The position numbers and the translations under genes were made by a program. From Verrucomicrobia bacterium S94 (GTDB lineage: Bacteria; Verrucomicrobiota; Kiritimatiellia; Kiritimatiellales; Pontiellaceae): a stretch of 64,000 nucleotides of DNA. The notes beneath the pieces were generated by a model, which did no database searches, was not told the DNA's origin, and was given only the letters and a program-made list of their open reading frames with translations. The stretch is from the NCBI GenBank assembly GCA_004299845.1, contig CP036201.1:2976001-3040000 (forward strand). The letters run 5' to 3'. This document shows, piece by piece, positions 34,714 through 51,487 of the stretch (positions within the stretch are counted from its first letter, which is position 1; every line of letters starts with the position of its first letter).

Positions 34714-35885
34714 GCAAAAAACCACCCGTCGTTTTCATCGCCGGCGAACGCCAGCATGCCGGCAAAACCGTTACCAGCCTCGGAGTCATTTCCGCCATCA
34801 GCAAACTCATTGACCCGAAAGATATCGGTTACTTTAAGCCCGTCGGCCAGGAAATGATCACTCTGCCGAACGGTCAGAAAATCGACAAGGACGTCCGGAT
34901 TGTCAAAGAGTTCACCGGACTTGATATGCCGGATATGGGCATTCTGTCCCCGGTACGTGTGGTCTCGGGCGTTACGCGTGATTATATCTCCGGTACGAAT
35001 CAGGCGGAGATTACCGCAAAGTTTGAAAAAAATATCCGCGATACCATGGACGCTCTTTCCGACAAAAAAATTATCATCGCCGAAGGTACCGGCCACCCGG
35101 GTGTCGGCTCGGTGGTCGGCCTTTCCAATGCCCGTGTAGCCAATATGATCGAGGCAAAAATCCTTTATCTGGTCGGCGGCGGTATCGGACGCACCATTGA
35201 TGAACTGGAAGTGGATTTCTCCTATTTTTCGCATCATAAAAGCAAAGTGGCCGGCGTCCTGTTCAACAAAGTGCTCCCGAAAAAACTGGATCAGATGAAG
35301 GAAATCATCACGGAAGATGCGCTGAACCGTATCTTTCCGGAATGGGACCCGAAACTGAACGTTTTCGGCCATATGCCGATCGTGAAATACCTGAACAACC
35401 CGTCGATGCAGTTGATCAGCCAGAGCTTCAGAAAACATCGGGCGATTAAAGGCGGAAAATGTGCCGCGGCCTGGCACAGGGCCTGCCGGAAAGTGAAAAT
35501 CATTTCATTGGATTTTGAAAATTTCAGTCCCGACCGGGCGTTGCGCCCGCGCGATATTGCCGTACTCGGCGCTGCGTCGCACCGCCGCCTGAAAAGAGTG
35601 ATTGACTGGAATAACGCCCAGCCGACCGAAAAAAAACTCGGCGGGCTTATTCTCACCTGCGCCAGCAATAAAATACCGGATGCCGCCGCTGAAGCACTGG
35701 TGGCCGACAGCGGACTGCCGACAATTGCCGTTATGCAGGATACCGCCGAAACTGATGCCATGCTCTACAAATGCTTCAACGACACTAAAATCCAGCTCTA
35801 CGATAAAATGAAGCACCGGAAAATTGTGAATCTTTTTGCAGAGCACTTTGACATCGAAAAATTCCTGAATGCCTTCGGAGTTTAA
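34710..35885 (+). CDS. P-loop BioD/Pta-N-like protein (DRTGG-type family)
   Basis: The 391-residue protein has a P-loop (FIAGERQHAGKTVTSLG, residues 9-25) and dethiobiotin-synthetase-like features (IGYFKPVGQ, IIAEGTGHPGVGSVVGLSNA). The C-terminal part (GGLILTCASNKIPDAAAEAL, ADSGLPTIAVMQDTAETDAM) resembles the DRTGG domain that precedes phosphotransacetylase in long Pta proteins. It lacks the Pta catalytic domain, so a regulatory or nucleotide-sensing role is likely. Coupled by an ATGA overlap to the GltD-like gene. A biotin role is not supported by motifs. Confidence 0.7.
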   Translation: MSKKPPVVFIAGERQHAGKTVTSLGVISAISKLIDPKDIGYFKPVGQEMITLPNGQKIDKDVRIVKEFTGLDMPDMGILSPVRVVSGVTRDYISGTNQAEITAKFEKNIRDTMDALSDKKIIIAEGTGHPGVGSVVGLSNARVANMIEAKILYLVGGGIGRTIDELEVDFSYFSHHKSKVAGVLFNKVLPKKLDQMKEIITEDALNRIFPEWDPKLNVFGHMPIVKYLNNPSMQLISQSFRKHRAIKGGKCAAAWHRACRKVKIISLDFENFSPDRALRPRDIAVLGAASHRRLKRVIDWNNAQPTEKKLGGLILTCASNKIPDAAAEALVADSGLPTIAVMQDTAETDAMLYKCFNDTKIQLYDKMKHRKIVNLFAEHFDIEKFLNAFGV

Positions 35886-36649
35886 TCAATAAAAAACCGG
35901 GCCTGTCCGTCGATTTCATGACGGCTAACCGGAATATCATAAACCGCACTGAGATTTTCCGACGTCAATACGGTATCGACATCATCGTGTTCCACAATCT
36001 CTCCGTCTTTCATGAGGATGATACGGTCGGCATACGACGCCGCCAGATTGATGTCGTGCAGAATGCACAGCACCGTCATACTGAACTGCTCCACCTGCCG
36101 TCGGACATAACCAAGAATCTGACTCTGATGCCGAAGATCCAGTGCGGAAGTCGGTTCATCCAGCATCAGAAGCGCACCCTCCCGCTCCCAGACCTGAGCC
36201 AGTACCCGCGCCAGCTGTACCCGCTGTTTTTCCCCGCCGGAGAGGGTCGAAAATTCGCGTTCTTTCAGGCTGCACGCATCCACATGCTGCAGTGCCTGTT
36301 CTATAATTTTATGGTCCGATTCCGTTTCTCCCCGGACAATATGCGGGTTCCGCCCCATCAGCACCACTTCATGTACTTTAAACGGGAATGCAATTTCGGT
36401 GGACTGCGAAAGAACCGCACGCCGAAGAGCCAGTTCCTTGCGGGAATACTCCTGCAGTTTTTTCCCATCGATGAAAACCTCGCCGCCACTCAGGCGGTTA
36501 GCCCCGCTCAGACATTTCAGCAGCGTCGATTTACCGGCACCGTTCGGTCCGAGCACAACCGTGATTCCTGCTCCGGAAAGTTCAACATTGACCGGTTTGA
36601 GAATCTGTTTTGAACCCACTGAAAAGTGAATATTTTCCGCTTTGATCAT
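35882..36649 (-). CDS. hmuV: Heme ABC transporter ATP-binding protein HmuV
   Basis: The 255-residue ATPase has Walker A (VVLGPNGAGKSTLLKCLSG), the signature LSGGEKQRVQLAR and Walker B (LLMLDEPTSALDLRHQ), followed by the switch His in LCILHDINLAASYADR. It powers heme import through the inner membrane with HmuU and HmuT. The ATG at 36649 overlaps the repaired hmuU stop by 4 bases (ATGA). It is the last gene of the minus-strand heme operon. Confidence 0.9.
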   Translation of the reverse strand: MIKAENIHFSVGSKQILKPVNVELSGAGITVVLGPNGAGKSTLLKCLSGANRLSGGEVFIDGKKLQEYSRKELALRRAVLSQSTEIAFPFKVHEVVLMGRNPHIVRGETESDHKIIEQALQHVDACSLKEREFSTLSGGEKQRVQLARVLAQVWEREGALLMLDEPTSALDLRHQSQILGYVRRQVEQFSMTVLCILHDINLAASYADRIILMKDGEIVEHDDVDTVLTSENLSAVYDIPVSRHEIDGQARFFID

Positions 36650-37652
36650 GATGCCCTCCCTGCATACTGACGAATCAGCAGCCAGAGAAAAAACGGCCCT
36701 CCGATCAGACTCGTAATAATCCCACCGGAATTTCCGCCGGAGCCACAACCGTGCGGGAAACCGTGTCGGCCGCCAGCAGCATGGCAGCACCCAGCAGGGC
36801 TGAAGCGGGAAGAAGGATGCGATGATCGGGCCCGATAAAAAGACGGATCAGATGCGGAACCACCAGCCCCACAAATCCGATAAAACCGCTGACAGCGACG
36901 CCCGCTCCAACGGCCAGGGCAATCATAATGATCAAACGGTTTTTCAGTTTATCACAGTCCACCCCCAGATAACCGGCATCCTCCTCACCCAGCATCAGCA
37001 TATTCAGGTTGCGTGCATTTTTCAGGATAACCATTGAGGCGGGAATAACACACGTGGCGGAAACAATCACTGTAGGCCACAGCGCATTGGCCAGACTGCC
37101 CATCGTCCAGAACGTGAGCGTACGCAGCTGCTGATCATCACTGATATAGGTCAGAAATCCGGTTGCGGAACCTGCAATGGCATTGACTGCAATGCCGGCC
37201 AGCAGCATATAGAGCACCGATACTGATTGCGAAGCCCGTGCAAACCGCATGATGACGAAACAGGTGAAAATGGCGCCGGTAAAAGCAGCTATACTGAGCC
37301 CATAGGTGCCCAGAAAACCGGCGGTCGGGCCAACCAGCACAATCATAACCGCAACAGCAAGCGAAGCCCCGCTGGTGATCCCGATCAGACCGGGATCAGC
37401 CAGCGGATTCCGGAACAGCCCCTGCATCGCACCCCCGGAAACGGCCAGAGCCGATCCGACAATGACCCCCAGAAGCATGCGCGGAATCCGAATGGAAAAC
37501 AAAACCGCCTGCTGTAAATCATCCAGCTGTCCGCTCAGCAACACCCGCACCGGAATGGCAACCGCACCGACCGAAACCGCAACCAGAACAGCCAGAAGCA
37601 GCACCACCGCAAGAAGGATCAGCCAGCGGATCTGTTTTCCGGTTTTACTCAT
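36646..37652 (-). CDS. hmuU: Heme ABC transporter permease HmuU (single-base frameshift near the 3' end)
   Basis: This FecCD-type permease starts with SKTGKQIRWLILLAVVLLL (ATG 37652), has about ten spans and the conserved GAMQGLFRNPLADPGLIGI and ISGFIGFVGLVVPHLIRL-like segments (here VSGFIGFVGLVVPHLIRL). The frame breaks after APAEIPVG: as given it ends LLRV and stop at 36705. Restoring one G in the run 36721-36723 gives IITSLIGGPFFLWLLIRQY, exactly the family ending, and a stop overlapping hmuV (ATGA). A missing base in sequencing is the simplest explanation; a real mutation would remove the last helix. Confidence 0.88.
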
Positions 37653-38466
37653 AGGAACGATGCAGTTCCGTCGCCGCTTCAATAACACGCGGCCCGAAAC
37701 CGAGCAGAAGCAGAGAATCCATTTCAATGAATTTTTTATTCTTCCCCGCCGGCGTCAGTGCTACCCCGGGAATGGCCAGCACATTCTGATGTTGTCCCGG
37801 AGCCGGAACCCCTGTCGTGGACGTCAGAATATAATCCGGTTTCAGTTCGATCAGCTCCTCCGGAGAAAGCGGTTTATACCCCTGAAATTCCGTCACCGCA
37901 TTTTCGGCACCGGACAGAGCGATGATTTCATCCGCCGTGGTGCCTTTCCCTCCGGCCTGCGGAGCCCCGCCGTGCGTCAGAATAAAAAGAACCCTGGGTT
38001 TATTTTCCACGCTCGCCAGTTCAGCATCGAGAACAGCTTTTTCCGCTTTTAACGTTGCAATCAGCGCCGCCGCTTCATCGGTTTTCTCCAATTTAACCCC
38101 GATGTCGCGGATATTCTCCAGCACACCGTCGAAACTTTCCGCAGCGTCCAGTTTGAGGATATCCACCCCCGTACTTTCCAGCTGCCGGATCACCGCCGGC
38201 GGTCCGGCCTTATCGGTCAGAATCACCAGATCCGGATTAAGGGAAATGATGCCCTCCGCAGGCAGCATCCGCTGATATCCCACCTTTGGAAGCCGGTTGG
38301 CCTCCGGCGGGTAATAACTGGAAACACAGTTCCCGACCAGCAGGTCCTGTGCACCCAGCGCATACACGATTTCGTTCACCGCGCCGCCGACCACCACCAG
38401 CCGCTCCGGTGCCGCGCGCCCGATGGATGCAATGGCAAGCAGTATGCTTAGAAACAACGTCCTCAT
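37645..38466 (-). CDS. hmuT: Periplasmic heme-binding protein HmuT
   Basis: The 273-residue protein has a cleavable signal (FLSILLAIASIGRA) and a cluster A/B BTUF-like fold: RLVVVGGAVNEIVYALGAQD, VGYQRMLPAEGIISLNPDLV, and GGAPQAGGKGTTADEIIAL. These are typical of heme-binding HmuT/ShuT. No lipobox is seen, so it is probably soluble in the periplasm. It overlaps hmuU by 8 bases and hmuS by 4, giving a tightly packed operon. Confidence 0.9.
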   Translation of the reverse strand: MRTLFLSILLAIASIGRAAPERLVVVGGAVNEIVYALGAQDLLVGNCVSSYYPPEANRLPKVGYQRMLPAEGIISLNPDLVILTDKAGPPAVIRQLESTGVDILKLDAAESFDGVLENIRDIGVKLEKTDEAAALIATLKAEKAVLDAELASVENKPRVLFILTHGGAPQAGGKGTTADEIIALSGAENAVTEFQGYKPLSPEELIELKPDYILTSTTGVPAPGQHQNVLAIPGVALTPAGKNKKFIEMDSLLLLGFGPRVIEAATELHRSYE

Positions 38467-39539
38467 GCAGACACCTCTTCACGCGGCAGTTCCGCAACAA
38501 TTTCACGCCACAGTTCGAGCTCCGGAATTCCGGGTTTGCGCTTCCCGAAAAAGGTAACAATCAGCTCACCTTCGGCATCAAACACTTCAACCGCCGTAAC
38601 ATGTCCGGTTTCGGTCGGTTTCCGCGTGACCCAGGTGTTGGCAATCGACGTGGTTTTCAGATGCAGGTTGAAGTCCGGATCAAGCACATTGTACCAACCT
38701 TCCATCTCGACCAGTTTCTGAACCGGCCCGGTATGAATGCCGATGCAGCCGCGGTTGCCGACAAACACCATGATCTCACAGTTTTTATCCCGCGCCGCTT
38801 CGAGCAGCCGTTTAGATGCGTCGTTGCTTACCGGATAGGCGATATCATCGCCCACATTCCGGAAGGCCTGCTGGCGGTCCACCTTGTATTTTCGGAGCAG
38901 CGGGAAAAAGTCGTGTGTATCACGCATGGCCTCCCAGGCTGCACGGAACTCCTGCCAGTCGACTTCCCCGTCCGACGGCGGAGCAGCCGGCGGGTCGTAG
39001 GCCTCGACCTCAATCCAGCGCGGCTGTTCGTCGGCGGCAAACCGTTCAACCAGCTTTTCATACTCATCCAGGTTCGACTCATCGGTCATATAGATCTTAT
39101 GCACAGCAGTGCCGGATTTATCAAAAAACTGCAGACTGCGCATCGTGCGATCCTGCACCAGATCCGTAACGGCAAAACAGAAATTCCAGTGGTTCATAAA
39201 CAGGCGCAGATCAATATCGGCTCCAACAAAAGTTCCGACGACCATCGGCCCGTGCTGCGAAAAATTATAGTTTTTGTAGACGCCCTTGCGCTCATTAACG
39301 CAGTTCTCGTTACGGGTCAGCGCCATAACCTTTCCGAGCGGCTCCATCTGTTCAAGAATCGCCTGTGCTTCGCTTTTCAGACGGATCACATTTTCACCTA
39401 CCCGGCTGGCCAGCAGCTGACCTTCAGACACACCGAGGGCGGCGGCAGCATTGCGGATGCGCATGGGTCTTTCCTCGATCAGTTCCCGGTATTTTTCCCG
39501 CAACTCAGCGGCAGCTTCATCTGTATTTACTTGGTTCAT
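38463..39539 (-). CDS. hmuS: Hemin-degrading/heme-handling factor HmuS (ChuS/HemS type)
   Basis: The 358-residue cytoplasmic protein has two ChuX/HutX-like repeats: GKVMALTRNENCVNERKGVY and FVGADIDLRLFMNHWNFCFA in the first, then CEIMVFVGNRGCIGIHTGPV and HLKTTSIANTWVTRKPT in the second. ChuS-type proteins bind imported heme and release iron or hand it on. In this operon a separate radical SAM enzyme (HutW/ChuW type) lies 5 kb away and could do the ring opening. The length matches the two-repeat family. Confidence 0.9.
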   Translation of the reverse strand: MNQVNTDEAAAELREKYRELIEERPMRIRNAAAALGVSEGQLLASRVGENVIRLKSEAQAILEQMEPLGKVMALTRNENCVNERKGVYKNYNFSQHGPMVVGTFVGADIDLRLFMNHWNFCFAVTDLVQDRTMRSLQFFDKSGTAVHKIYMTDESNLDEYEKLVERFAADEQPRWIEVEAYDPPAAPPSDGEVDWQEFRAAWEAMRDTHDFFPLLRKYKVDRQQAFRNVGDDIAYPVSNDASKRLLEAARDKNCEIMVFVGNRGCIGIHTGPVQKLVEMEGWYNVLDPDFNLHLKTTSIANTWVTRKPTETGHVTAVEVFDAEGELIVTFFGKRKPGIPELELWREIVAELPREEVSA

Positions 39540-39566: not shown

Positions 39567-40001
39567 TCAGACGGCCTCCGCCATGGGCTCACGCGCGCCG
39601 TCGCTTTCCTGTTCTTCAAGCAGCTGTTGAAGGGTGATCCCCCGGAAATAATTCCGCAGTGTTCTGCTGGCCCCGCACCACAGATTGTTCATACACGGCA
39701 GCGTGCACCGGCTGCAGCGCTCAAGCTGCCCCACCACATCCAGAATGCCCTCTGCAGCAATGATCAGGTCATACAACGTAATATCGGCAGCAGGACGGCC
39801 CAGCCGGTAACCGCCGTAAATTCCCCGCTGACTGCGAACGAGCCCGGCATTTTTCAGCTGCATGATGATCTGCCCGATATAAGCCGCAGAGATCCCGGTC
39901 TGTTTGGCCAGAAAGGTTTTGGATACCGGCCGGGCGTGACGGTTCCGGGCAATACATAACATAATGCTCGCGGCGCTTAATCCTCTGTTCGATACCGTCA
40001 T
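39567..40001 (-). CDS. Rrf2-family regulator with Cys cluster (iron or Fe-S sensing)
   Basis: The 144-residue winged-helix protein (KTFLAKQTGISAAYIGQIIM, GGYRLGRPAADITLYDLI) carries four cysteines C96, C99, C103 and C109 (CSRCTLPC, then LWC), the region that holds an Fe-S cluster in IscR, NsrR and RirA. It is encoded inside the heme operon between the receptor and hmuS, so it most likely controls heme or iron uptake according to cluster status. This is a RirA-like logic by inference; nitric oxide sensing is the alternative. Confidence 0.85.
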   Translation of the reverse strand: MTVSNRGLSAASIMLCIARNRHARPVSKTFLAKQTGISAAYIGQIIMQLKNAGLVRSQRGIYGGYRLGRPAADITLYDLIIAAEGILDVVGQLERCSRCTLPCMNNLWCGASRTLRNYFRGITLQQLLEEQESDGAREPMAEAV

Positions 40002-40012
40002 TGTTCTATCCT

Positions 40013-42241
40013 TTAAAATGCAACATTCAGAGTGAGGACACCATTGATCCCGGGCTGTACCGACAGCTCCGGATTTTCCAAATCCGCGTGATCCACACGG
40101 CCGGCATTCGGCCAGAGCCAGTATTTTTCATCGGTCAGGTTGCGGATGGTCGCTTCGATGGAAATGCGGCGGGTAATATTCCAGTACGCCGACCAGTCCA
40201 CCACAAACGAGGTGGGCGGCACAAAATAGGTCCAGTCATCAGAAACCTCGTTCTTTTTCGCCCGATAGGTTCCTGTTATACGTGAACCCCATTTTCCGGA
40301 ACCATGGTCGTATGCAAGATAGAGCACGGTCTCAAACGGATCCACGGAATCGACCGCATCACCATCGGTTCGGTTATACCCATCCGACCAGACCGCACGG
40401 ATCCCCGTTGAAAACCCTTCGAGCACATTCCGGAAGGCTCCCAGCCGGAAATCCATCCTGGCCTCTACACCGTAGATTTCCACATTTCCGATATTCTGTA
40501 CCTGACGGCTGGTGGACGAGAGTATGACCTCTTCAATAAAATCCTGATAATAGGTGTAATAGACCGAGGTATCGAAGGAGACCGCCTCTCCACCGCCTTT
40601 GAATCCCACTTCGAACCCATCTGCGGTTTCCTCTTTCAGCCCGGGATTCGGCAGCCGTTCAAAATCGCCGTGATCAAAGTAACCCACATAATTCTCCATC
40701 GAAGGATTCCGCACGCTATGGGCATAACGCGTCCACACCATGGCATTGCGCGACAGCAGATAATCCGCCGAGACACTCGGAGAAACCGCGAAGTTATGAT
40801 AGTCGGCTTTGGGATCGGTTCCCGTTGCGATCAGATAGTCCGGATCGTTCCCCGGTTTAATGGTGTAGTCAATCAGCCGGACGCCTGCAGAAAAATTCCA
40901 GCGGCCACGCGATATCGCATCTTCCATATACGCTTCAAAGCGGTATAGATCCGATGGATCAAACGCATTCGGCGAACTCGTCGGGTTCGGCGCATCATTA
41001 TATACCACATCCCGTTGAAAAGTGTTCTCCGCATGCTCATAGCCCAGCTCAATGCCATAATTGAGTTCATGCTCAAATGCTCCGGCATCAAAATCGTGCA
41101 GCACGTTTGCCGTGGTGCCGATCAGGTCATGATCAAACCCGATATGATCGGTACGCTGCAGATCGTTGGTCACCGGATCGAAACCCGACGGAGCGGGATC
41201 CACCCAGAATGAATTCCGGTGGTTTATGCTCTCCGATTCCGCCGTCTGAAAATAGCCCTTAACCGCCAGCCGGTCCCACCAGCCGGCCTCCGGAGAGCTG
41301 ACATAATCCAGACTGACCCGCGAACGTTCATTCGTATTCTGCGAGGCCGCATAAACCACATCGCCAACTTCTGAGCTGTGCAGTTGCGTGTCGCTCTGAT
41401 AAACAAAATTTTCCGCCGTCAGCCACAACCGGTTCTGTTCATCCGGAATCCAGGATACCGTACTCAGGAAATGGTTCTGCTGATAGTCCAGCGGATTGGC
41501 ATCCACATTCCCTTTGGCATTTTCAACCTCCCGCCCTTCGGTGTACGACTCACTGACGGTGATATACATGTCGTCGCCGCGCACTCCCGCATTCAGCAGT
41601 CCGTTGATACTCCGGTCCACCGACTTCAGCGTTGTACTGCCCCGCACCAGCCAGGGCTCGGGCGAATATTCCAGTTCTTCCGTCAGTGATTTACTTCGGA
41701 ACATCACTGCGCCACCAAGTGCTTCACTGCCATATTGCGCGGAGCCGGGCCCTTTCAGAATATCCACCCCGCCGTACACCCGCGGATCAAAAAAGGTCCT
41801 GCCCATGCCGCCGCTCTGATTAAATTCCGGCGGCTGGCGAATTCCGTCAATCGTCATAAGCAGCCGGTTTCCGCCGACACCGCGGATCTGATAACTGGTA
41901 AACCCGTTATTTCCATAAGGTACATAAGGATCCGCTCCCACAACATCGGTCGGAATGGAAACTCCGGGCTGATAGCGGGCAACATCCCCGGCATCGGACA
42001 CCGAACCGCCTTTATGCGAATCAAAATCCATGCGGACGACGGAAGCCGGAATACGGTCCGTCTCCTTCCGATCCCGGGAACCGTCGACTTCGGTAACACC
42101 CAGTTCGGGCGGAAGATCCTCTCCCTCCGCGCCCTGAGACCACGAACGCTGCGCTATCCCTGCACAACATCCGGCCAGAACAATTAATGTGGCTCTGAAT
42201 GGTACGTACAAAATATTACTCCAACCAGGCCTCCACAGCAT
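40013..42241 (-). CDS. TonB-dependent outer-membrane receptor, heme type
   Basis: The 742-residue receptor has an N-terminal export signal (LIVLAGCCAGIAQRSWS), a plug (VARYQPGVSIPTDVVG, YQIRGVGGNRLLMTIDGIRQ, DILKGPGSAQYGSEALGG) and a beta-barrel ending in Phe (NGVLTLNVAF). NPGLKEETADGFEVGF corresponds to the NPNLKPE motif of heme/hemoglobin receptors. Together with the hmu genes downstream this supports heme uptake. The start overlaps the previous secreted-protein gene by 26 bases, so translation is coupled; the exact start is uncertain. Confidence 0.88.
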   Translation of the reverse strand: MLWRPGWSNILYVPFRATLIVLAGCCAGIAQRSWSQGAEGEDLPPELGVTEVDGSRDRKETDRIPASVVRMDFDSHKGGSVSDAGDVARYQPGVSIPTDVVGADPYVPYGNNGFTSYQIRGVGGNRLLMTIDGIRQPPEFNQSGGMGRTFFDPRVYGGVDILKGPGSAQYGSEALGGAVMFRSKSLTEELEYSPEPWLVRGSTTLKSVDRSINGLLNAGVRGDDMYITVSESYTEGREVENAKGNVDANPLDYQQNHFLSTVSWIPDEQNRLWLTAENFVYQSDTQLHSSEVGDVVYAASQNTNERSRVSLDYVSSPEAGWWDRLAVKGYFQTAESESINHRNSFWVDPAPSGFDPVTNDLQRTDHIGFDHDLIGTTANVLHDFDAGAFEHELNYGIELGYEHAENTFQRDVVYNDAPNPTSSPNAFDPSDLYRFEAYMEDAISRGRWNFSAGVRLIDYTIKPGNDPDYLIATGTDPKADYHNFAVSPSVSADYLLSRNAMVWTRYAHSVRNPSMENYVGYFDHGDFERLPNPGLKEETADGFEVGFKGGGEAVSFDTSVYYTYYQDFIEEVILSSTSRQVQNIGNVEIYGVEARMDFRLGAFRNVLEGFSTGIRAVWSDGYNRTDGDAVDSVDPFETVLYLAYDHGSGKWGSRITGTYRAKKNEVSDDWTYFVPPTSFVVDWSAYWNITRRISIEATIRNLTDEKYWLWPNAGRVDHADLENPELSVQPGINGVLTLNVAF

Positions 42242-43028
42242 AGAACCCCTGGGCGTTCAGCGTGGAATTGGTTATTGAAAGGGTTGATCCGTCACCGGAA
42301 ACCGGACCGGCAACAACCGCCCATTCCGTCAACGCATTGGTAAGAGACTGCGAACAGATCAGTTGATAGACCACCCCCGGCTCACTTGTAAACCGGAGCA
42401 CCGGATCGGTTCCGCTGAACGTTATTTCCAGCTCAGGTACCGGGGCGGTCGGCACGCCCGCCTCGGTATCCAGACGCAGTTCATCCAGGCTGGAATGGAT
42501 AACCGTATCAAACCGGATCGTATAGTTTGTTGCGTTCAGTCCCGCCAGATCCCACTCCATTTTATAGCCCAGTGTGTGGTATTGCCCATACTCCCCCTGA
42601 TCATCCACAAAATGATAAAAATTCGTCAGGCTGTCCGGAGATAATGACATTCCGCCATCCAGTTCCAGTCGCACGGTTTCGTTCGACAGCGCATCGGCCT
42701 CGCCCCAGGTAAAAAACTGCAGACAGACTTTTCCCAATACATTCGTCGAAGAACCGGTCAGCTCAAACGACAGATCGGACGAATAGCTGTATATATTTCC
42801 ACTGCTCGTAATCAGAGCAGGATTAAACTGCCGCAGCTCCAGATTGGGCGATCCCGATTCCCACTGCGGGGTATTCACCCCCGCAGTGGTATTGGCATAG
42901 GTAAATGTTGACCACTGCGCAAACTGGCTCTCCCCCGTATACCCGGGATCAAGAAAAGTCAGCGCCGATACACTTTGAACGAGACCGGAAACGGCGGCAA
43001 AAAACGGCAGAAGTTTTGTATTCATCAC
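42216..43028 (-). CDS. Secreted protein co-transcribed with the heme receptor, possible hemophore
   Basis: The 270-residue protein has a signal peptide (LLPFFAAVSGLVQSVSA), a beta-rich domain (about 22-190; FLDPGYTGESQFAQW, EWDLAGLNATNYTIRFD) and a C-terminal module of about 70 residues (LEITFSGTDPVLRFTSEP, VYQLICSQSLTNALTEW, FYAVEAWLE) that is common on PVC secreted proteins. I do not recognise the main domain. Being first or second in the heme operon and overlapping the receptor gene, it may bind heme outside the cell, like HmuY or HasA, but no heme-ligand motif is proven. Confidence 0.7.
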   Translation of the reverse strand: MMNTKLLPFFAAVSGLVQSVSALTFLDPGYTGESQFAQWSTFTYANTTAGVNTPQWESGSPNLELRQFNPALITSSGNIYSYSSDLSFELTGSSTNVLGKVCLQFFTWGEADALSNETVRLELDGGMSLSPDSLTNFYHFVDDQGEYGQYHTLGYKMEWDLAGLNATNYTIRFDTVIHSSLDELRLDTEAGVPTAPVPELEITFSGTDPVLRFTSEPGVVYQLICSQSLTNALTEWAVVAGPVSGDGSTLSITNSTLNAQGFYAVEAWLE

Positions 43029-43058
43029 ATGTATTCCCTGTATCGACGCAGATTTCAG

Positions 43059-43751
43059 TTAGCAGATACGCATACGGCGCAGCATAAACAGGGCCCCGCC
43101 GGCACCACCGATCAGCACCATCGTGGCCGGTTCCGGAATCGCTTCGGTATACGTGTCGCTCTGCTCCAGCTGCAGTCCATACTGCTGTGCGTGCTCACCG
43201 ACATCGTAGCTGATGGAGAATGAAGTCACCGTTTCGCCCAGGCTGCTCAGGTCCCACTGGAATACATCGGTCGTCAGCGTAACCTCAAATCCGCCGATAG
43301 TGTCGTTATAGGAACCCAGATTGAAGGTCGAGTCCGCGGCACCGATCACGGTAGATCCGTTTATTGTCAAAGTAGGCCCGTTAGTGAAGCTTGCCGAAGT
43401 GCCCGCACCGTACCCCACCGCAAATACAATCGTCTCCAGATCCGCAACCACACTGTCCTGCGAGACTTCAAAAACACCGCCCGCCGGGGAATAAAGAGAG
43501 GAACCGCCCGCATAGCCGGTTCCGGAAATTTTAGCCAATTCACCGCCATTCGATCCTGCCTCATTTGCAACCATCGGACCCGGCCATGCACCGGAGCCCG
43601 GATACGAGCCATAGCCCGGATACTGGGCACTGGTCAGCCCGTCCCAGCCGTCATACAGTGTGTTCCCGCTCAAACCGAAATCAGTCAGCGACGCCTGCGA
43701 TACAGCCGCAGCCATCAGAGCCGCTGCCATCATTTTTATTTTTTTATTCAT
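43059..43751 (-). CDS. PEP-CTERM secreted protein heading the heme operon
   Basis: The 230-residue protein has a signal peptide (KMMAAALMAAAVSQAS), a beta-rich body and a classical C-terminal sorting signal: IPEPATMVLIGGAGGALFML and RRMRIC. PEP-CTERM tails are processed by exosortase and direct proteins to the surface or matrix. The central part (SLGETVTSFSISYDVGEHAQ) resembles the neighbouring secreted protein only in general style. Start ATG 43751 follows AAGGAGAA. Its place directly before the heme receptor and behind a candidate Fur box suggests an iron-regulated surface heme binder. Confidence 0.78.
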   Translation of the reverse strand: MNKKIKMMAAALMAAAVSQASLTDFGLSGNTLYDGWDGLTSAQYPGYGSYPGSGAWPGPMVANEAGSNGGELAKISGTGYAGGSSLYSPAGGVFEVSQDSVVADLETIVFAVGYGAGTSASFTNGPTLTINGSTVIGAADSTFNLGSYNDTIGGFEVTLTTDVFQWDLSSLGETVTSFSISYDVGEHAQQYGLQLEQSDTYTEAIPEPATMVLIGGAGGALFMLRRMRIC

Positions 43752-44267
43752 ATGTTCTCCTTGTTTGAAAAGTAAGGTGCTGTTGATACGCATTCTCATC
43801 CACGGCCTCTACTCCGGCACGGAGCAAAAACAGCCCGGGACGGAGAGCGGGAACAGCCTGAAGCAGATCCGGAACTGTTTACCGTGCAGACCGCAAAACC
43901 AACACCCCACTGTCCCTGCATACAAAAGGGCCGGGCGAGGAGCCACACCCGCCCGGCCCGTACATGAACGCCGAGGAAGCGTCACACATAACTAACCAAG
44001 TAATAATCAAGCAGTCGGATGGTTCAGAGGGGATAGCTCTGTCCGTCAATTGATCATGCATACACCCTAATGGATCCCCCTCCCCGCCTCCACCCGGTCA
44101 CGGAGCAAAAACAACCCGGGGCGGAGCGCCTGAAGTTAAGACCAGCTAAAACTGCAACACGGTATCAATTAAGCAGTTGCCGCTTTTTAGCGTGCATGCA
44201 GTCCCGGGAGTGCTACCGTACTTTCATTAAAGCGGAATTCCGCATAACTTAACCAAGGAGGGTTATT
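43752..44267. other. 516-base intergenic region with a 28-base duplicated element and a GC-rich hairpin
   Basis: The region separates the heme operon and the ferredoxin gene. A 28-base element starting CACGGAGCAAAAACA occurs at 43818-43845 and 44099-44126 with 26 identical bases. Between them GGGCCGGGCG (43928-43937) and CGCCCGGCCC (43950-43959) form a perfect 10-base stem with a 12-base loop and no T-run. I find no gene. It may hold a structured leader or a regulatory RNA; a known riboswitch class was not recognised. Confidence 0.5.
43784..43798 (-). promoter_or_regulatory. Candidate Fur box upstream of the heme operon
   Basis: The plus strand reads TGATACGCATTCTCA (minus: TGAGAATGCGTATCA). 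It matches the 7-1-7 Fur consensus TGATAAT-A-ATTATCA at 11 of 14 arm positions. It lies 33 bases before the first gene of the heme operon. It is consistent with iron repression; no fur gene is in the window. Confidence 0.5.
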
Positions 44268-44438
44268 ATGGCCTATGTAATCTCAGACGAATGCACCAGC
44301 TGTGGCGCCTGCGCAAGCGAATGCCCGGTCGATGCCATCAGCGAAGGCGACGGCAAATACGTCATCAATGCCGACACCTGCACCGATTGCGGGTCCTGCG
44401 AAGCAGTCTGCCCGGTTGATGCCATCTCTGCCGGTTAG
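44268..44438 (+). CDS. 2x[4Fe-4S] ferredoxin, copy 1
   Basis: This 56-residue bacterial-type ferredoxin has two CxxCxxCxxxC(P) clusters: CTSCGACASECP and CTDCGSCEAVCP. It is an electron donor for low-potential reactions. Its ribosome site AAGGAGG lies in a leader (TTAACCAAGGAG) also found before ferredoxin copy 2 at 54110. It is near the radical SAM heme enzyme, for which it may supply electrons, and is followed by a terminator shared with that convergent gene. Confidence 0.93.
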   Translation: MAYVISDECTSCGACASECPVDAISEGDGKYVINADTCTDCGSCEAVCPVDAISAG

Positions 44439-44519: not shown

Positions 44520-46004
44520 TCATCCTGCAATCTCCATCAATTTAAGCCCTATCAGTTTCTGCAGATTCACACTCCAGAACTCGCCTGCCGGCGTAAGCCG
44601 GATATCATCCTGATCTTCAATCAGTCCGGCCTTTTTCCAGGTATCAAGCAGAGGAAACAATGTTTCACGGAGCGACATCCCGGCCACCTTTTCCAGCTCC
44701 CGGACATCAATTCTTCGCTGTTCAATCTGTCCCGTTGCAGAAGCCATCACCGAAGCACAGGCCGGATCCTTCGATGCCGAAATGACCGGCTTCAACCCTT
44801 CCGTCACCGATGTACTGAAACGGTGCACATCGCTCTGCTGAAAAAACCGGCTGCCGTTCCAGCGCCCTCCGGCCCCTGCCCCCAGCGGAATGCAGTCCAC
44901 ATTCAACTTATTCCATAGATTATACCGGTTACGTTCCCGCGCATCGCGTCCCCAATGTGCAATGGTAAGCCGGTCAAATCCATGTTCGAGCATTCGGGAC
45001 CGGCCGGCCAGAAACAAATCGGCCTGCTGTTTCAGCGTCGCCATCGATGGCAGTGCATTAAGCTTTTTCATCAGCGGTGTCGCCGGCAGCAGATTGATCT
45101 GATAAAGATCCAGCCCGTGAATCCCGGTCTCGTTCACCCCGCAGTCGATGCTGTCAATCCACTCGGCCTCCCTCTGGCCCGGCAAACCGTAGATCAGATC
45201 AATCACCACCGCAGCATGATAGGGATCGCCCAGCTCAACAATACGGTTCAGCCGTTCAATCAGTTCTTCCCGGCCGAGAACCCGCCCCATCATGCGGCGG
45301 ATTCCGGTATCGAAACTCTGTACGCCGAACGAAAACCGGTTCGCTCCGGCATCCAGTGCGGCAGCGACTTTTTCATCGGTAAAATCATACAACCGACCTT
45401 CTACCGTAATCTCACAATCCGTCGTTAACGGCAGCTCCCTGCGAATGGTCCGGATCAGCTTTTCCAGTTCCGACGCCTGCAGATCCGTCGGGGTTCCACC
45501 GCCGAAATAAACGGCCGACAGTTTTCGTCCGGTGTTCCGGAGCCCGGCCCCGGTCAGTTCGATATCGCGCACAACAGCATCGGTATAACCGGCAATCGCG
45601 GTCGGCTCCGTGGTCTCGGCATAGAATCCGCAGAAAAGACAGCGCGTACAGCAGAACGGCACATGCAGGTAGGCCATGGCAGGTGCTTCACTATCGACGG
45701 AATCCTCCAGACATTGGAAAAAATGTTCCACCGGATTTCCGGTTACAGCCGCGCCGCCGGACATGCCGGCATGTACCCCGTATTTGCGGTCAAACGCATC
45801 ATGAATCGGATCCACAGAAATACACGGCGCCGGAAATTTTTCCACCGGATGCCGGGAACCGGTCTGCATAGACTGCACAAAAGCCGCGTCAATCTGCGTA
45901 CGCTGTTCTCCGCGCGCTCTGACTTCCGCCTTTTCACGAATCCGCTCCCGCACGAAGGCGGGAACTGCTCCCAGCAGCTCTTCAGCATCCTCGGTCCAGA
46001 ACAT
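44520..46004 (-). CDS. HutW/ChuW-type radical SAM heme-degrading enzyme with N-terminal PCP_red-like domain
   Basis: The 494-residue protein is a HemN-like class C radical SAM enzyme: YLHVPFCCTRCLFCGFYAE carries the C-x3-C-x2-C cluster (Cys118, Cys122, Cys125), followed by VYFGGGTPTDL and FSFGVQSFD. The family (HutW/ChuW) opens heme anaerobically by methyl transfer and frees iron. The first 45 residues (FWTEDAEELLGAVPAFVRER) look like the small PCP_red domain otherwise found at the end of light-independent protochlorophyllide reductase BchB and in some redox proteins. ATG 46004 is preceded by GGAAAAAAGTG. It overlaps the DUF2023 gene by 23 bases. Confidence 0.85.
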   Translation of the reverse strand: MFWTEDAEELLGAVPAFVRERIREKAEVRARGEQRTQIDAAFVQSMQTGSRHPVEKFPAPCISVDPIHDAFDRKYGVHAGMSGGAAVTGNPVEHFFQCLEDSVDSEAPAMAYLHVPFCCTRCLFCGFYAETTEPTAIAGYTDAVVRDIELTGAGLRNTGRKLSAVYFGGGTPTDLQASELEKLIRTIRRELPLTTDCEITVEGRLYDFTDEKVAAALDAGANRFSFGVQSFDTGIRRMMGRVLGREELIERLNRIVELGDPYHAAVVIDLIYGLPGQREAEWIDSIDCGVNETGIHGLDLYQINLLPATPLMKKLNALPSMATLKQQADLFLAGRSRMLEHGFDRLTIAHWGRDARERNRYNLWNKLNVDCIPLGAGAGGRWNGSRFFQQSDVHRFSTSVTEGLKPVISASKDPACASVMASATGQIEQRRIDVRELEKVAGMSLRETLFPLLDTWKKAGLIEDQDDIRLTPAGEFWSVNLQKLIGLKLMEIAG

Positions 46005-46365
46005 CACTTTTTTCCGTCGATTGCGCCTGACGTTTTTCCCACTTAACCCGCTGCTCCAGATAGCGCACGCACTGCTGCCGCCGGTCATAACCCAGCATGG
46101 TCCCCAGCATGAAATCCTCTTCCGGCGTATAGTGATTCAGATCATCTTTTCCAATCACCCGGATCACATCAACACTCTCTTTCGCACCGAAAAAAATATT
46201 TACGCGATCCGTATTTTTAACCGGATAGGTCTGATACTCAATTTCCGCAAGTTCCAGACGATGAATCGCAGCATGAAGCTCATCGGCACGAACCGTATGC
46301 AGTACCAGATTCCGCAATCCTTTGCGGTATTCATAAACATGATGACCGAAAACCTGCATACTCAT
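45982..46365 (-). CDS. DUF2023 family protein
   Basis: The 127-residue protein reads MQVFGHHVYEYRKGLRNLVL near the start, then VNIFFGAKESVDVIRVIG and YTPEEDFMLGTMLGYDRRQQ. These are DUF2023 hallmarks. DUF2023 genes usually sit beside a flavodoxin, as here (flavodoxin ends 3 bases upstream). The function is unknown; the pairing and the downstream HutW gene suggest a part in flavodoxin-dependent electron transfer to heme degradation. Confidence 0.85.
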   Translation of the reverse strand: MSMQVFGHHVYEYRKGLRNLVLHTVRADELHAAIHRLELAEIEYQTYPVKNTDRVNIFFGAKESVDVIRVIGKDDLNHYTPEEDFMLGTMLGYDRRQQCVRYLEQRVKWEKRQAQSTEKSDVLDRGC

Positions 46366-46368
46366 GTG

Positions 46369-46859
46369 CTAAACCTCTTGTCTGATCTGTTCCGCCCAGG
46401 TCTTCAGCCGGCCTGCGGTCTTATCTTCTTCATTATCCTGATCCAGCGCCAGACCCACAAATGCATCGCCGTCCTGAGCGCGGGATTCCGAAAACGCATA
46501 CCCTTCCGTCGGCCAGCTGCCCACCAACCGGAGTCCTTTTTCCTTAACCGCCTCAGCCATATCAGCCATACCGTCCACAAACGTATCGCCATAGCCGAAC
46601 TGATCGCCCAGCCCGAAAACGGCTGCCGCGGATGCCGTTACCTCCATCGACGCAAAACCGGAAAGGAAATCCGCCATATCATCCTGCAGATCCCCTGCTC
46701 CCCAGGTGGAAGCCCCAGCACCAGCAGATCGCAGCCTTCCAGCGCCGCCGTATCAGCTTCCGTCGCGGCCACGGCTGTTCCCTCCAGAATAGCGGCCAGA
46801 TCCTCGGCAACCGCCTGCGTGGTTCCGGTCATACTTCCATAAACAACTACACACTTCAT
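46369..46859 (-). CDS. Flavodoxin (single-base frameshift)
   Basis: The FMN phosphate loop is intact (KCVVVYGSMTGTTQAVAEDL). The frame breaks after LLVLG; restoring one G in the G4 run at 46713-46716 yields ASTWGAGDLQDDMADFLSGF, the expected flavin-binding loop, and continues to VFGLGDQFGYGDTFVDGM and the C-terminus KTWAEQIRQEV. The repaired protein of about 163 residues has normal flavodoxin length. It is encoded between the AraC regulator and DUF2023, so it is probably the iron-sparing electron carrier of this operon. A sequencing error is the likely cause of the break. Confidence 0.85.
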
Positions 46860-46878
46860 TTTTGGTTCCTTTCCTTAT

Positions 46879-47868
46879 TCAGTTAACATCCTTCGGTTTT
46901 TCCGCACCGGCCTGATGCATGTTCTGGTACGCCTTCGGCTTCATTCCGAAACGTTCCTGAAACCCCCGTGCAAAATGGCTGGGATTGCTGTAGCCAACCT
47001 CGTTGGCAATTTCGATGACGGACAACTCGCCTTCTCTCAGCAGCTGTTCCGCCCGCTGGAAACGCAGTTCCCGCAAATAGCCGAACACCGTAATGCCGTA
47101 CATCGCCTTGAAATTACGTTTCAGCTTGAATTCGTTGATATAAAAGCGGCGGCAGAGATCCGCCAGCGAATGCTCCTCTTCCAGATGCTTCTCCAGATAA
47201 GCTGCCACTTTGCGCAATGCCTCGGCATCGTGTGCGGAACACCCGAATTCCTTGTCATCCTTTTCCGCCAGTGTCGGCTGATTCACCAGTTCACTGATCC
47301 ACTCCAGGCTGCGCGCTTCCAGTTCCATACGGCCTTTAAGTTCATCCGCCGACGCAATGGAGATCTGTTCCGAAAGCCACTGCAGTTTTTTATTGGCCCG
47401 CCCGTGAAGCACGGTCGGTTTATGCTGATTAACACAGGCAAAACAGTGCAGCTTATCCGCCACCACCGTTTCACAGAGACTGACCAGAGAACCCATGACA
47501 TGCGGGCACATCGAAAAAGACATCAGCTCCACATCGGCCTCTTTTTCGGCCAGAACCTGCATTTCTTCAATACGGACAATAAACCATTCCCCCGCCTGCA
47601 CCGTCTTTCTTCCAAGATCCGGAAGAAGAACGGTTTTCGTTCCGCGCCGCACATAGCCGAGCCATACCGAATCGGCACCGAACTCAACCTTGAAACTGCA
47701 CTTCGCATCCGGCAGCAGTTCCGCCTCATGCAGTTTCATCCCGGCACGAACCCGGACATGACGGCCCCGCAACCGCGCACCGGAAACCCGCGTATCATAT
47801 TTCACCGGCCGTTCAAACAGCGTTTCGGCCGGAGCGTTCCGTTTAAAATTTTTATGCTTATCATCCAT
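46879..47868 (-). CDS. AraC-family regulator, PchR-like
   Basis: The 329-residue regulator has a C-terminal AraC double HTH: SLADLCRRFYINEFKLKRNF and SVIEIANEVGYSNPSHFARG followed by QERFGMKPKAYQ. The N-terminal domain carries a Cys/His segment (ADKLHCFACVNQHKPTVLHG). The build and the KLKRNFKAMYG segment resemble PchR-type siderophore or heme regulators, but the ligand is not known. It is 19 bases upstream of the flavodoxin gene on the same strand, so it may start the flavodoxin-DUF2023-HutW operon and control it. Confidence 0.85.
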   Translation of the reverse strand: MDDKHKNFKRNAPAETLFERPVKYDTRVSGARLRGRHVRVRAGMKLHEAELLPDAKCSFKVEFGADSVWLGYVRRGTKTVLLPDLGRKTVQAGEWFIVRIEEMQVLAEKEADVELMSFSMCPHVMGSLVSLCETVVADKLHCFACVNQHKPTVLHGRANKKLQWLSEQISIASADELKGRMELEARSLEWISELVNQPTLAEKDDKEFGCSAHDAEALRKVAAYLEKHLEEEHSLADLCRRFYINEFKLKRNFKAMYGITVFGYLRELRFQRAEQLLREGELSVIEIANEVGYSNPSHFARGFQERFGMKPKAYQNMHQAGAEKPKDVN

Positions 47869-48341: not shown

Positions 48342-49099
48342 ATGATCAACAAACTGAAAATCTGCATCCCGGCATTCACAACCCTCGTCCTTCTTCATTC
48401 GGCAACGGCACAGAAGTCGCCCGACTCCTCCCGGGAAAAACTACTGCAATGGATTGAAATTAAAAAAATCATCAGCGCTGAATCCGCAGCCTGGAAAGCC
48501 GAAAAACAGCAGCTCAACGATTTAAATACCATCCGGCGGAAAGAGATCGAACAACTCGACGAAATACTCGTCCGCTCCGAAACCCGGCGTACGGAAAACC
48601 GCGCACTGCTCGAAAAAAAACAGGCCGAAGCAGAAAGCGCGGAAACCCGGCGCAGCCAGCTGGCTCTCAGAATTGCAGAACTCGAAAAACAGATTCTTCC
48701 CCTCACCCGGAAGCTGCCCGCTCCGCTCTTCCGCAAACTGGAACCCGAAATAGCCGCACTTGAACAATCCGGCCGGCCGCTGCAGGAACGCTATCGAGAT
48801 CTGACCGCTATGCTGATCGAAATCGGGGACTTCAATGCCTCAATCACCCTCGATACCGAAATCCGGGAAACCGCACATGGGAAAACCGAAGTAGACATCC
48901 TTTACCTCGGTCTCGCACATGCCTGGTATGTCAACCGCACCGGCACCAGCGCCGGTTACGGTATCCCGACATCCTCCGGCTGGAAGTGGAGCGAAGATCC
49001 GTCCATGGCGGCACAGATCCGATCGGCCATCGCCATCGTCGGGAAACAGGCTCCCCCGCCTTCACCGCTCTCACACTTCATCCGGAGGGCACAAAATGA
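48342..49099 (+). CDS. DUF3450 periplasmic coiled-coil protein of TonB system 1 (single-base frameshift)
   Basis: The protein has a signal peptide (FTTLVLLHSATA), a long coiled coil (KAEKQQLNDLNTIRRKEIEQ), and the DUF3450 end YLGLAHAWYVNRTGTSAGYG and WSEDPSMAAQIRSAIAIVGK. As given the frame runs on to 49319, but adding one C to the C5 run at 49050-49054 gives QAPPAFTALTLHPEGTK and a stop at 49097-49099, the ending I would expect for the family. DUF3450 proteins are the first gene of extended TonB/ExbB operons and probably brace the motor in the periplasm. It leads a six-gene plus-strand operon. Confidence 0.82.
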
Positions 49100-49176
49100 T
49101 CCCCCCTTTTTTCTGCCACAGCGCTACCGCGAAAAAAAATACAACCCGCCGCACTCCTGTGTCCGCCGGGAGTCCC

Positions 49177-50499
49177 ATGGTGAAAACCATATCCCTTTCA
49201 TTTATACTCCCCGCCTTGACATTTGCCTCCAATTCCATCGATCCGGACCTTCAGTCGGAACTGGAAAAACTGTCCACCCTTCGGGAAACCATCGCCGAGG
49301 AAAAACCGGAGCTCGCTAAAGAAACCCGTCAAATTGCTTCCGAACTCGCCCTCAAACGCCGGGAAGCTCAGTTCATCGAACTCGACCGCAGTGAATTCCG
49401 GCAAAAACTGGATTCATTCACTCAACGGATTTCCGCACTCGAAAATGAGTACAGCTATATCGACAACCTCCTCTTCGACTATCGCAAGCAGTTTGAATCC
49501 CAGCTCTCTTCCGCGGCGGCAGAAAACAGGCGCACAGCGCTGCTCGAAGCCGATCAACATCTTGAAGCGCGACTGGATCTGCTGGAACAGGCCATCGCCC
49601 ACTATGACACCGCCTGCGGAATTACTGCATTCAGCGGAACAGCCATCGATACCGACGGGCATGCATACGACGGTTCCTTCCTGCAGGCCGGTCCGGTGGT
49701 CTGGTTTATTTCCAGCGATCAGAAAACCGGCGGCCTGACCTTCGAAAACCGGAATCTGATGGCAGAAATCGTTCCGGGAACCGCCAATCCGGCCGAGCTC
49801 AAAAAACTCGCGGCCGGGCAGCCTGCCCGGCCGCGCTTTGACCCTACCCGAGGCGCGGCCATTGCTCTCGATAAAGCCACCGACAACTGGATCGACCACA
49901 TCCGTAAAGGCGGTTTCTGGGTCTACCCGATTCTGCTCCTGGCTCTGATCTCCACCATTGCAGCTCTGGGAAAATGGCTCCAGCTTTCCCGGATTCGCGA
50001 ACTTCGTCCTGACGTCATACGCCTCGTGCTTAATGCGTTGAAAGAACAGGACCGCCTCAAGGCTGAAACCGCGCTGGAAAATGTTCGCCACCCGTCCAAA
50101 ACCCTCCTGCAGCGCGGCATTGAACTGAGCAACCGTCCAGCCGACGACATTGAAGAAGGTATGTATGAAAAATTTCTGGAAGCCGAACCCGCTCTGCAGC
50201 GCGGTTTATCCTTTATTGCCATCACCTCCGCCACCGCCCCGCTGCTCGGCCTGCTCGGTACCGTTACCGGTATGATCTATACCTTCCGCCTCATTAACGT
50301 CTTCGGCACCGGCGATGCCAAAGCCCTCGCCTCCGGTATTTCCGAAGCCCTTGTCACCACAGAAATGGGACTGGTGGTCGCCATTCCGGCACTGATCATG
50401 CATGCCCTGCTTTCCCGACGCGTGCAGGGCATACGCACCTCCATGGAACTCACCACGCTCGCTTTTCTCAACGGAATCAACCACGGAGAACAGACATGA
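49177..50499 (+). CDS. Long MotA/TolQ/ExbB-family proton channel protein, TonB system 1
   Basis: The 440-residue protein has a signal (SLSFILPALTFA), a periplasmic coiled-coil domain (to about residue 220) and then the ExbB channel part with three membrane spans (GGFWVYPILLLALISTIAAL, TSATAPLLGLLGTVTGMIYT, TTEMGLVVAIPALIMHALL). The extended N-terminus is typical of ExbB proteins paired with DUF3450. ATG 49177 directly precedes the signal; ATG 49096, with a GGAGG site and overlapping the corrected upstream stop, is an alternative. It should form a channel with ExbD. Confidence 0.87.
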   Translation: MVKTISLSFILPALTFASNSIDPDLQSELEKLSTLRETIAEEKPELAKETRQIASELALKRREAQFIELDRSEFRQKLDSFTQRISALENEYSYIDNLLFDYRKQFESQLSSAAAENRRTALLEADQHLEARLDLLEQAIAHYDTACGITAFSGTAIDTDGHAYDGSFLQAGPVVWFISSDQKTGGLTFENRNLMAEIVPGTANPAELKKLAAGQPARPRFDPTRGAAIALDKATDNWIDHIRKGGFWVYPILLLALISTIAALGKWLQLSRIRELRPDVIRLVLNALKEQDRLKAETALENVRHPSKTLLQRGIELSNRPADDIEEGMYEKFLEAEPALQRGLSFIAITSATAPLLGLLGTVTGMIYTFRLINVFGTGDAKALASGISEALVTTEMGLVVAIPALIMHALLSRRVQGIRTSMELTTLAFLNGINHGEQT

Positions 50500-51068
50500 T
50501 CGGTGAACTATTCCAGGAAATCACCACCCTTTCCAGCCAAGGCGGTTTTGCATTCTATGCCTTGATCGTACTGGCCTTTTCCATTGCCTATACCCTGATC
50601 TCCATCTCCCACGCCCTGCTGTTGCCGGATGCCCCCTTTCTATCCCAACGTCAATGGCAATACATACTGTCACGCCGCGACATTCCACCCCAGATGATCC
50701 GCCGGCTCTCCAATGAACTCGATGCTGAAAATCCGGATGAACATTTCCACGAACTTGACCATCAGCTTTTCGCCAACCTGGAGCGCCGTTTTCCCTTTGC
50801 CTTCGTACTGATCGGCGCCGCACCGCTGATCGGACTGCTCGGAACGGTTTCCGGTATGCTCACCACCTTCAGCGGCATGGGCTCCTCGGATGCCCTGTCG
50901 GTCGATGCCGTTTCTTCCGGCGTTTCCGAAGCCCTCATCACCACACAGGCCGGACTCGTCATCGGTGTATCAGCGCTTTTTATCTGCTCCCTGATGCGCT
51001 TTCGTTATGAACAGCTTAAATCCGGATTCCTGCGGCTGGAAGCCGCCGTAAAACAACTGCAAGGATGA
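50496..51068 (+). CDS. exbB: Short ExbB/TolQ-family protein, TonB system 1
   Basis: The 190-residue protein has three membrane spans: AFYALIVLAFSIAYTLISIS, FVLIGAAPLIGLLGTVSGML and TTQAGLVIGVSALFICSLM. The second and third hold the ExbB core motif GAAPLIGLLGTVSGM. It overlaps the long ExbB by 4 bases (ATGA) and the next gene by 4, so the genes are translated together. Two ExbB paralogues per unit is characteristic of this operon type. Confidence 0.9.
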   Translation: MIGELFQEITTLSSQGGFAFYALIVLAFSIAYTLISISHALLLPDAPFLSQRQWQYILSRRDIPPQMIRRLSNELDAENPDEHFHELDHQLFANLERRFPFAFVLIGAAPLIGLLGTVSGMLTTFSGMGSSDALSVDAVSSGVSEALITTQAGLVIGVSALFICSLMRFRYEQLKSGFLRLEAAVKQLQG

Positions 51069-51484
51069 CCATGAGCCGAGGATTTCCACGCTATAAAAAA
51101 CGGACGTTCCATCATGAAGGGGAAATCAATATTTCTCCGCTCATCGACATTGTGTTCATCCTTCTGATCTTCTTTATCGTTACCACGGTATTCGTCGACG
51201 AAACCGGTCTGGAAATTGAAAAACCGCGCGCCGCCACACAACAGGACATTGAGCGCAACAGCATTCTCATCGGCATCGATCCGCAGGGAGCGGTTTATTA
51301 TAACAGCCGCGAAGTCGGCATCGGCGGCGTCCGTGCCGTGGTGAGACGGCTGCTCCGACAGGAAAGCATGCCCGTCATTATCCAGGCCGACCGCCGGACA
51401 CCGACCGACCGGACCATTGCCGTGCTCGACGAAGCGCGCAGTGCCGGTGCTCAACAGGTTTTTGTATCCACACTATCCGACTGA
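51065..51484 (+). CDS. exbD: ExbD/TolR-family protein, TonB system 1
   Basis: The 139-residue protein has a short cytoplasmic tail, one span with the proton-relay Asp (INISPLIDIVFILLIFFIV) and a periplasmic domain (ILIGIDPQGAVYYNSREVG, VIIQADRRTPTDRTIAVLDE). ExbD couples proton flow to TonB with ExbB. The start may be ATG 51071, which has the better AAGGA spacing. The stop is 3 bases before tonB. Confidence 0.92.
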   Translation: MTMSRGFPRYKKRTFHHEGEINISPLIDIVFILLIFFIVTTVFVDETGLEIEKPRAATQQDIERNSILIGIDPQGAVYYNSREVGIGGVRAVVRRLLRQESMPVIIQADRRTPTDRTIAVLDEARSAGAQQVFVSTLSD

Positions 51485-51487
51485 ACC

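Follow-up and report, generated by a model that had tools for sequence, protein, structure and literature searches.

What do two exported proteins do at the head of a heme-uptake operon, directly in front of its TonB-dependent receptor? The question is raised by a 64,000-nucleotide stretch of Verrucomicrobia bacterium S94 (contig CP036201.1, C1:2976001-3040000 of the single-contig, 4.1 Mb genome; hereafter the window), whose close relatives among publicly deposited sequences belong to the Pontiellaceae (Kiritimatiellota), e.g. record JAROBA01. The genes on its minus strand follow each other in the order HutW, PEP, SEC2, TonB receptor, Rrf2, HemS, HmuT, HmuU and HmuV, where PEP denotes a protein with a PEP-CTERM sorting tail and SEC2 a second secreted protein. 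An earlier note on this DNA had proposed PEP and SEC2 as candidate hemophores, and we confirmed that both genes head the heme operon and precede the receptor; Sec signal peptides were recognised in both proteins by eye. Their place at the head of the operon and the way they follow heme-use genes across related species make surface capture of heme their probable function. We therefore favour, with somewhat better than even confidence, a receptor-coupled surface heme capture by new protein families with an exosortase anchor, a reading that draws on association and on a parallel with vitamin B12 uptake.

The distribution of the PEP gene was assessed in 29 genomes of the family and 346 genomes of the class, using a PEP profile and PF05171 (HemS) as queries. 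Full-length PEP and HemS were found in the identical five of the 29 family genomes; across the class, HemS occurs in 14 of the 346 genomes and all seven genomes with a full-length PEP belong to these 14. The corresponding probabilities if the genes were independent (8e-6, or 1 in 119,000, for the family and 3e-11 for the class) are optimistic because the genomes share ancestry. Five of the seven full-length homologues occupy the same heme-operon position, and the homologue of G043, a genome of another family, adjoins a second HemS gene in divergent orientation. All seven genomes carry HemS. Homologues placed mostly outside heme loci, the pattern named by the earlier note as speaking against its proposal, were not what the survey returned. 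A truncated PEP copy was also observed elsewhere in G043 (L074, ~9024-9393, plus strand). It is flanked by genes for adenosylhomocysteinase and for a cysteine-synthase/decarboxylase pair, possibly a small cluster of the metallophore type.

Gene order was conserved as well. Three congeners retain HutW - PEP - SEC2 - receptor - HemS - HmuTUV, and the most telling locus is that of G152, in which identity has fallen to only 29% for PEP and 37% for the receptor while the order AraC - PEP - SEC2-like - receptor - HemS - HmuT - HmuU - HmuV is intact. Compared to the closest relative, both PEP and SEC2 are under purifying selection, with nonsynonymous over synonymous divergence (dN/dS) of ~0.05/0.55 and 0.05/0.36, i.e. 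a ratio of ~0.1 for both genes. Since this ratio is low for both and gene order is conserved in five genomes, the arrangement is not due to chance.

The two proteins differ in their C-termini. That of PEP, AIPEPATMVLIGGAGGALFMLRRMRIC, passes the PEP-CTERM model TIGR02595 (20.4 bits, cut-off 16) and stays under the Pfam cut-off (PF07589, 17.6 bits versus 20.7), and its AIPEP motif is invariant across six PEP homologues. A single exosortase gene is present in the genome (C1:1831269-1832015; PF09721, E 6.2e-52), together with at least 10 PEP-CTERM matches; the other PEP-CTERM proteins were considered as relatives of PEP and rejected, as most of the matches owe to the common sorting tail. SEC2 ends in FYAVEAWLE and has no PEP-CTERM match in Pfam or NCBIfam. 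Except for PEP-CTERM, neither protein matched a Pfam family up to E 10, in a search whose HMMER filters drop very weak matches.

PEP and the N-terminal domain of SEC2 are, as the comparisons indicate, homologous to each other. They align colinearly in BLASTP (E 0.003), and after removal of signal peptides and tails their profile comparison scored 31.2 over 154 columns, compared to a decoy mean of 12.5 and with none of 200 column-shuffled decoys reaching this score. One histidine near the domain end is aligned in each of the PEP and SEC2 sequences, those of G152 among them (PEP H187 in GEHAQQY, SEC2 H177 in VIHSSL), and is a possible iron ligand. The 75-residue end domain of SEC2 (window 42216-42440) is Ig/Fn3-like and has no Pfam match; residues 200-268 of the model mostly reach a predicted local distance difference test (pLDDT) score of 60-86. 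Because the relatives of this domain lie at most 30 residues from the protein C-terminus at all 26 loci (L043-L068), it may be a candidate C-terminal sorting or attachment domain of Kiritimatiellota.

Heme is most likely the substrate of the receptor, because HemS, HmuTUV and HutW adjoin. Its best models, TIGR01786 and TIGR01785, describe hemoglobin/heme receptor subfamilies, with the top one (TIGR01786, hemoglobin/transferrin/lactoferrin subfamily) scoring 289.9 bits versus a cut-off of 323.75, and its best solved match is PhuR (residues 47-717, nearly full length; E 2.6e-52). All five receptors compared, from as many species, keep H524 (FDHG...NPGL), which lies between the FRAP-like and the NPNL-like box; a histidine at this place presumably has the functional role known from HemR. 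The previously described 26-base overlap between SEC2 and the receptor holds only if ATG 42241 is the receptor start. The alternative, TTG ~42211, removes the overlap and by inspection has a better-placed GGAG in front; two relatives (G114 and G126) likewise offer an ATG beyond the SEC2 stop, without overlap.

A parallel arrangement was found for vitamin B12. Among the five TonB plug domains of the window's genome, a second receptor (C1:2811862) is immediately preceded by the gene of a PEP-CTERM protein, itself located downstream of an adenosylcobalamin (AdoCbl) riboswitch. At the corresponding place in G126, which belongs to the same genus, two PEP-CTERM DUF4465 proteins (PF14717, E 2.8e-33 and 2.6e-50) precede the TonB receptor, and an AdoCbl riboswitch stands before each of them. 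For the G126 protein compared with solved structures, 9hmu was the best match (E 1.3e-24); the PEP-CTERM protein of the window's genome is a different one, possibly a beta-propeller. Vitamin B12 binding by DUF4465 has been proven for eight divergent members, and crystal structures exist for some (PMC13398666). The PEP-CTERM proteins at these riboswitch loci probably serve exosortase-anchored B12 capture and, as the DUF4465 homology is strong, anchored capture directly before a TonB receptor would already be present in the genus. PEP and SEC2, at the same place in their own operon, look like the heme version of this arrangement, which is the best argument for surface heme capture by the pair. 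For heme capture, an exosortase anchor has so far gone unreported. The open-access full-text literature searched described neither a PEP-CTERM hemophore nor a PEP-CTERM-anchored B12 capture protein, and yielded nothing relevant that ties PEP-CTERM to heme uptake or TonB receptors.

Several results weigh against surface heme capture. No hemophore in NCBIfam and, by profile, no solved hemophore matched PEP or SEC2, which appear to stand outside HmuY, HasA, NEAT and the other named hemophore families. The plug-domain histidine that serves PhuR as heme ligand (AQTHRNYVDPD) aligns with SGGMGRTFFDPR, where the receptor has no histidine. In G062, PEP lies 37 kb from the heme operon of that genome, and seven class genomes have HemS without PEP, so that heme use does not depend on PEP. 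Structure prediction, suggested in the earlier note as a check, was run for both proteins with AlphaFold on close homologues only (five sequences for PEP, three for SEC2) and yielded poor models (mean pLDDT 48.5 and 49.8, respectively), unsuited to pocket analysis. They show only a generic beta-sandwich or jellyroll, with the matches of the PEP model all at Z under 8 and no fold match convincing. The nearest folds were the carbohydrate-binding modules (CBM) CBM35, CBM27 and CBM61 and Fn3 domains, at scores of little meaning; DUF4465 structures, whose fold is an augmented beta-jellyroll, were not among the fold matches listed, which given the model quality excludes nothing.

An alternative explanation, unlikely but the most serious of its kind, is that PEP and SEC2 are CBM-like jellyroll surface proteins that attach the cell to polysaccharide or to extracellular matrix, sharing with heme uptake no more than its regulation, e.g. 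in iron starvation or biofilm growth. Besides the weak CBM matches, this would agree with the original link of PEP-CTERM proteins to exopolysaccharide genes (Haft 2006, as cited in PMC4960237) and with the breakdown of macroalgal polysaccharides by related Pontiella (PMC10880615). However, the models are too poor for the fold matches to be trusted, the co-occurrence is with HemS and is not shown for any polysaccharide gene, and the place before the receptor is kept even at 29% identity. Less likely again is that the pair captures a host or environmental hemoprotein, or docks on the receptor as an accessory, without binding free heme, similar to hemoglobin- or transferrin-binding accessories. 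The subfamily of the receptor's best model fits this idea, and two paralogues of which one is anchored and the other is not would suit a relay or docking pair; however, the histidine aligned in both proteins weakly suggests a metal or heme contact, and little hemoglobin is available in marine anoxic sediment.

We also considered that PEP and SEC2 bind a corrinoid or another tetrapyrrole as distant relatives of DUF4465 (BtuJ), with an operon that serves more than heme. The PEP stretch WDLSSLGETVTSF...QQYGLQLE (WDLSSLG...QLEQ) resembles the HI region of DUF4465 with the key tyrosine in place, and the DUF4465 proteins of the genus likewise carry PEP-CTERM. However, the NTPAYF motif of the HI loop is absent from PEP, which has EHAQQYGLQL at the aligned place with only the tyrosine agreeing. 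DUF4465 membership, promising by motif, failed both profile tests: PF14717 found no match in the window's genome at E 0.001 and missed PEP and SEC2 at E 10, and the profile comparison of PEP with DUF4465 spanned only 19 columns, its score being equalled by 2 of 200 decoys. Moreover, Rfam detected no cobalamin riboswitch before the heme operon, where it was considered for the GC-rich leader, whereas the B12 operons of the genus have one, and HemS, HutW and HmuTUV indicate heme. A corrinoid ligand is improbable on these grounds, although PEP may still work like a DUF4465 protein. The most improbable case is that of passengers, generic PEP-CTERM surface proteins without a role in uptake. The number of PEP-CTERM matches in the genome and the homologue outside the heme operon in G062 could be read in this way, but the intact order in the strongly diverged G152 locus, the purifying selection, the perfect match with HemS among the family genomes and the B12 operons of like layout argue against it.

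Under the preferred surface heme capture, PEP and SEC2 would be paralogues with a beta-sandwich fold that leave the cytoplasm through Sec and are produced together with the heme receptor. Exosortase would sort PEP via its PEP-CTERM tail, by which it would be held on the cell envelope, while the tail-less SEC2 would probably be kept on or near the surface in another way, perhaps by its C-terminal Ig-like domain. Beyond the outer membrane, both would capture heme, either free or on a carrier protein, and hand it over to the TonB-dependent receptor; HmuTUV would then import the heme for use by HemS and HutW.

Exported partners of another kind occur in two further families of the class, whose heme operons encode, after HmuTUV-HemS, an exported protein that is unrelated to PEP and SEC2 and bears a DRWMYPF motif. 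This protein has ~305 aa and is PEP-CTERM-anchored in the first family (G031, G043, G062, G092); in the second (G012, G050, G059) it has ~545 aa and, by eye, a SEC2-like end. A pseudopilin-like gene follows in most loci. Exported partners are therefore recurrent in the heme operons of the class and of more than one kind.

The regulation of the operon was assessed in the leader of PEP. The candidate Fur box reported there previously was not recovered: the window holds no 19-mer match with ≤3 mismatches, and the single 15-mer match (43784-43798, 3 mismatches) is at the level given by shuffled sequence. The leader contains two copies of a ~39-base element, whose 26-base core has no further match in the genome at ≤3 mismatches. 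Four species keep both copies, with a TATAAT-like (-10-like) stretch after each. It is plausible that the copies mark two promoters controlled by a single regulator, for which the AraC protein nearby is a candidate, and the conserved terminator between the copies makes it possible that the distal promoter yields a short RNA; among 4 sequences, 5 of 26 predicted pairs carry compensatory changes. Coordinates are listed in Table 1.

Table 1 Coordinates of the heme locus and of the compared loci. Positions refer to the window unless a locus (L) is named.
Feature	Position	Strand	Remarks
HmuV ATPase	35882..36790	-	Open reading frame; order kept in relatives; start uncertain
HmuU permease	36705..37727	-	PF01032 E 1.2e-82; start uncertain
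HmuT periplasmic binding protein	37645..38466	-	PF01497 E 5.5e-34
HemS/ChuS heme-handling protein	38463..39539	-	Two domains; PF05171 E 1e-80
Rrf2-family regulator	39567..40001	-	Not found in G114
TonB-dependent heme-type receptor	40013..42241	-	Start codon uncertain: ATG 42241 or TTG ~42211
SEC2	42216..43025	-	269 aa, exported; homologous to PEP in its N-terminal domain; Ig/Fn3-like at the C-terminus (~195-269); without PEP-CTERM
PEP	43059..43751	-	230 aa, exported; PEP-CTERM sorting tail ~residues 204-230; candidate for heme capture at the surface
Proximal leader element copy (core)	43820..43845	-	
Intrinsic terminator between element copies	43928..43959	-	Conserved in four species
Distal leader element copy (core)	44101..44126	-	
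HutW/ChuW anaerobic heme-degradation radical SAM enzyme	44520..46088	-	Upstream gene group of same locus; TIGR04107 427.5 bits, cut-off 400
AraC-family regulator	46879..47868	-	Upstream of operon; kept in relatives including G152
PEP-CTERM proteins behind AdoCbl riboswitches, directly before TonB receptor	L166 8319-9569	-	
PEP-CTERM proteins behind AdoCbl riboswitches, directly before TonB receptor	L076 6903-11097	+	
Heme operons ending in DRWMYPF protein	L121 6751-8489; L122 6995-8742; L123 7523-9252; L124 1482-3217; L125 9938-12586; L126 7602-9227; L127 9241-11693		

Some further features were observed around the operon. Divergent from the PEP leader lies a small 2[4Fe-4S] ferredoxin gene (44268-44438, plus strand; 56 aa), whose sequence is conserved in G061 and G114. 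At its N-terminus, the HutW-type radical SAM protein bears a PCP_red domain (PF08369, E 5.8e-10), a domain also found in protochlorophyllide reductase. The flavodoxin gene beside HutW and DUF2023 (46369-46880, minus strand) is broken by a frameshift and intact in three relatives, which reflects either a sequencing error or a real loss. Two separate ExbB/ExbD/TonB-type modules lie near the heme locus (48342-52195 and 55646-59249), the latter adjoining another TonB receptor (59695-61794).

A molecular function has been assigned to few PEP-CTERM proteins. If surface heme capture holds, one of them would gain nutrient capture before a TonB receptor, two new candidate heme-binding families would be added, and a lipoprotein-independent way for PVC bacteria to keep capture proteins on their surface would be suggested. 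The B12 parallel in the genus, with its riboswitches and a binding domain of biochemically proven function, makes the idea testable at once.

Among known systems, the closest layout is hmuYRSTUV of Porphyromonas and Bacteroides, in which the HmuY gene directly precedes the TonB receptor HmuR and HmuSTUV-type genes. HmuY is a heme-binding surface protein (PMC2671838, PMC3040768). The PEP and SEC2 genes take a similar place in front of their own TonB receptor and HmuSTUV-type genes, with a predicted capture role; however, HmuY is anchored as a lipoprotein and comes from a different family, which neither PEP nor SEC2 matches in Pfam, whereas PEP has a PEP-CTERM anchor and two paralogous proteins are present here. 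The hemophores HasA, HxuA, HusA and those with NEAT domains capture heme extracellularly for a dedicated uptake system, as predicted for PEP and SEC2, but have no sequence match to them and use other secretion and anchoring routes. DUF4465/BtuJ, BtuG and BtuH are tetrapyrrole-binding surface proteins beside TonB receptors (PMC13398666), and some Pontiellaceae DUF4465 proteins are PEP-CTERM-anchored; PEP and SEC2 differ by the absence of PF14717 and the HI-loop motif and by the predicted heme ligand, and the Bacteroides members are lipoproteins. Compared to generic PEP-CTERM proteins of the PVC group, PEP shares the Sec signal, the PEP motif with hydrophobic helix and basic end, and a genomic exosortase, but it is fixed in a heme operon. 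It is an evenly balanced proposition that exosortase/PEP-CTERM in Kiritimatiellota supports a general class of receptor-coupled capture proteins replacing the surface lipoproteins of Bacteroidota, with PEP-CTERM-anchored DUF4465 for B12 and, for heme, the unrelated PEP/SEC2 pair as well as a third family that other lineages use. PEP and SEC2 themselves probably work like HmuY and BtuJ while belonging to neither family.

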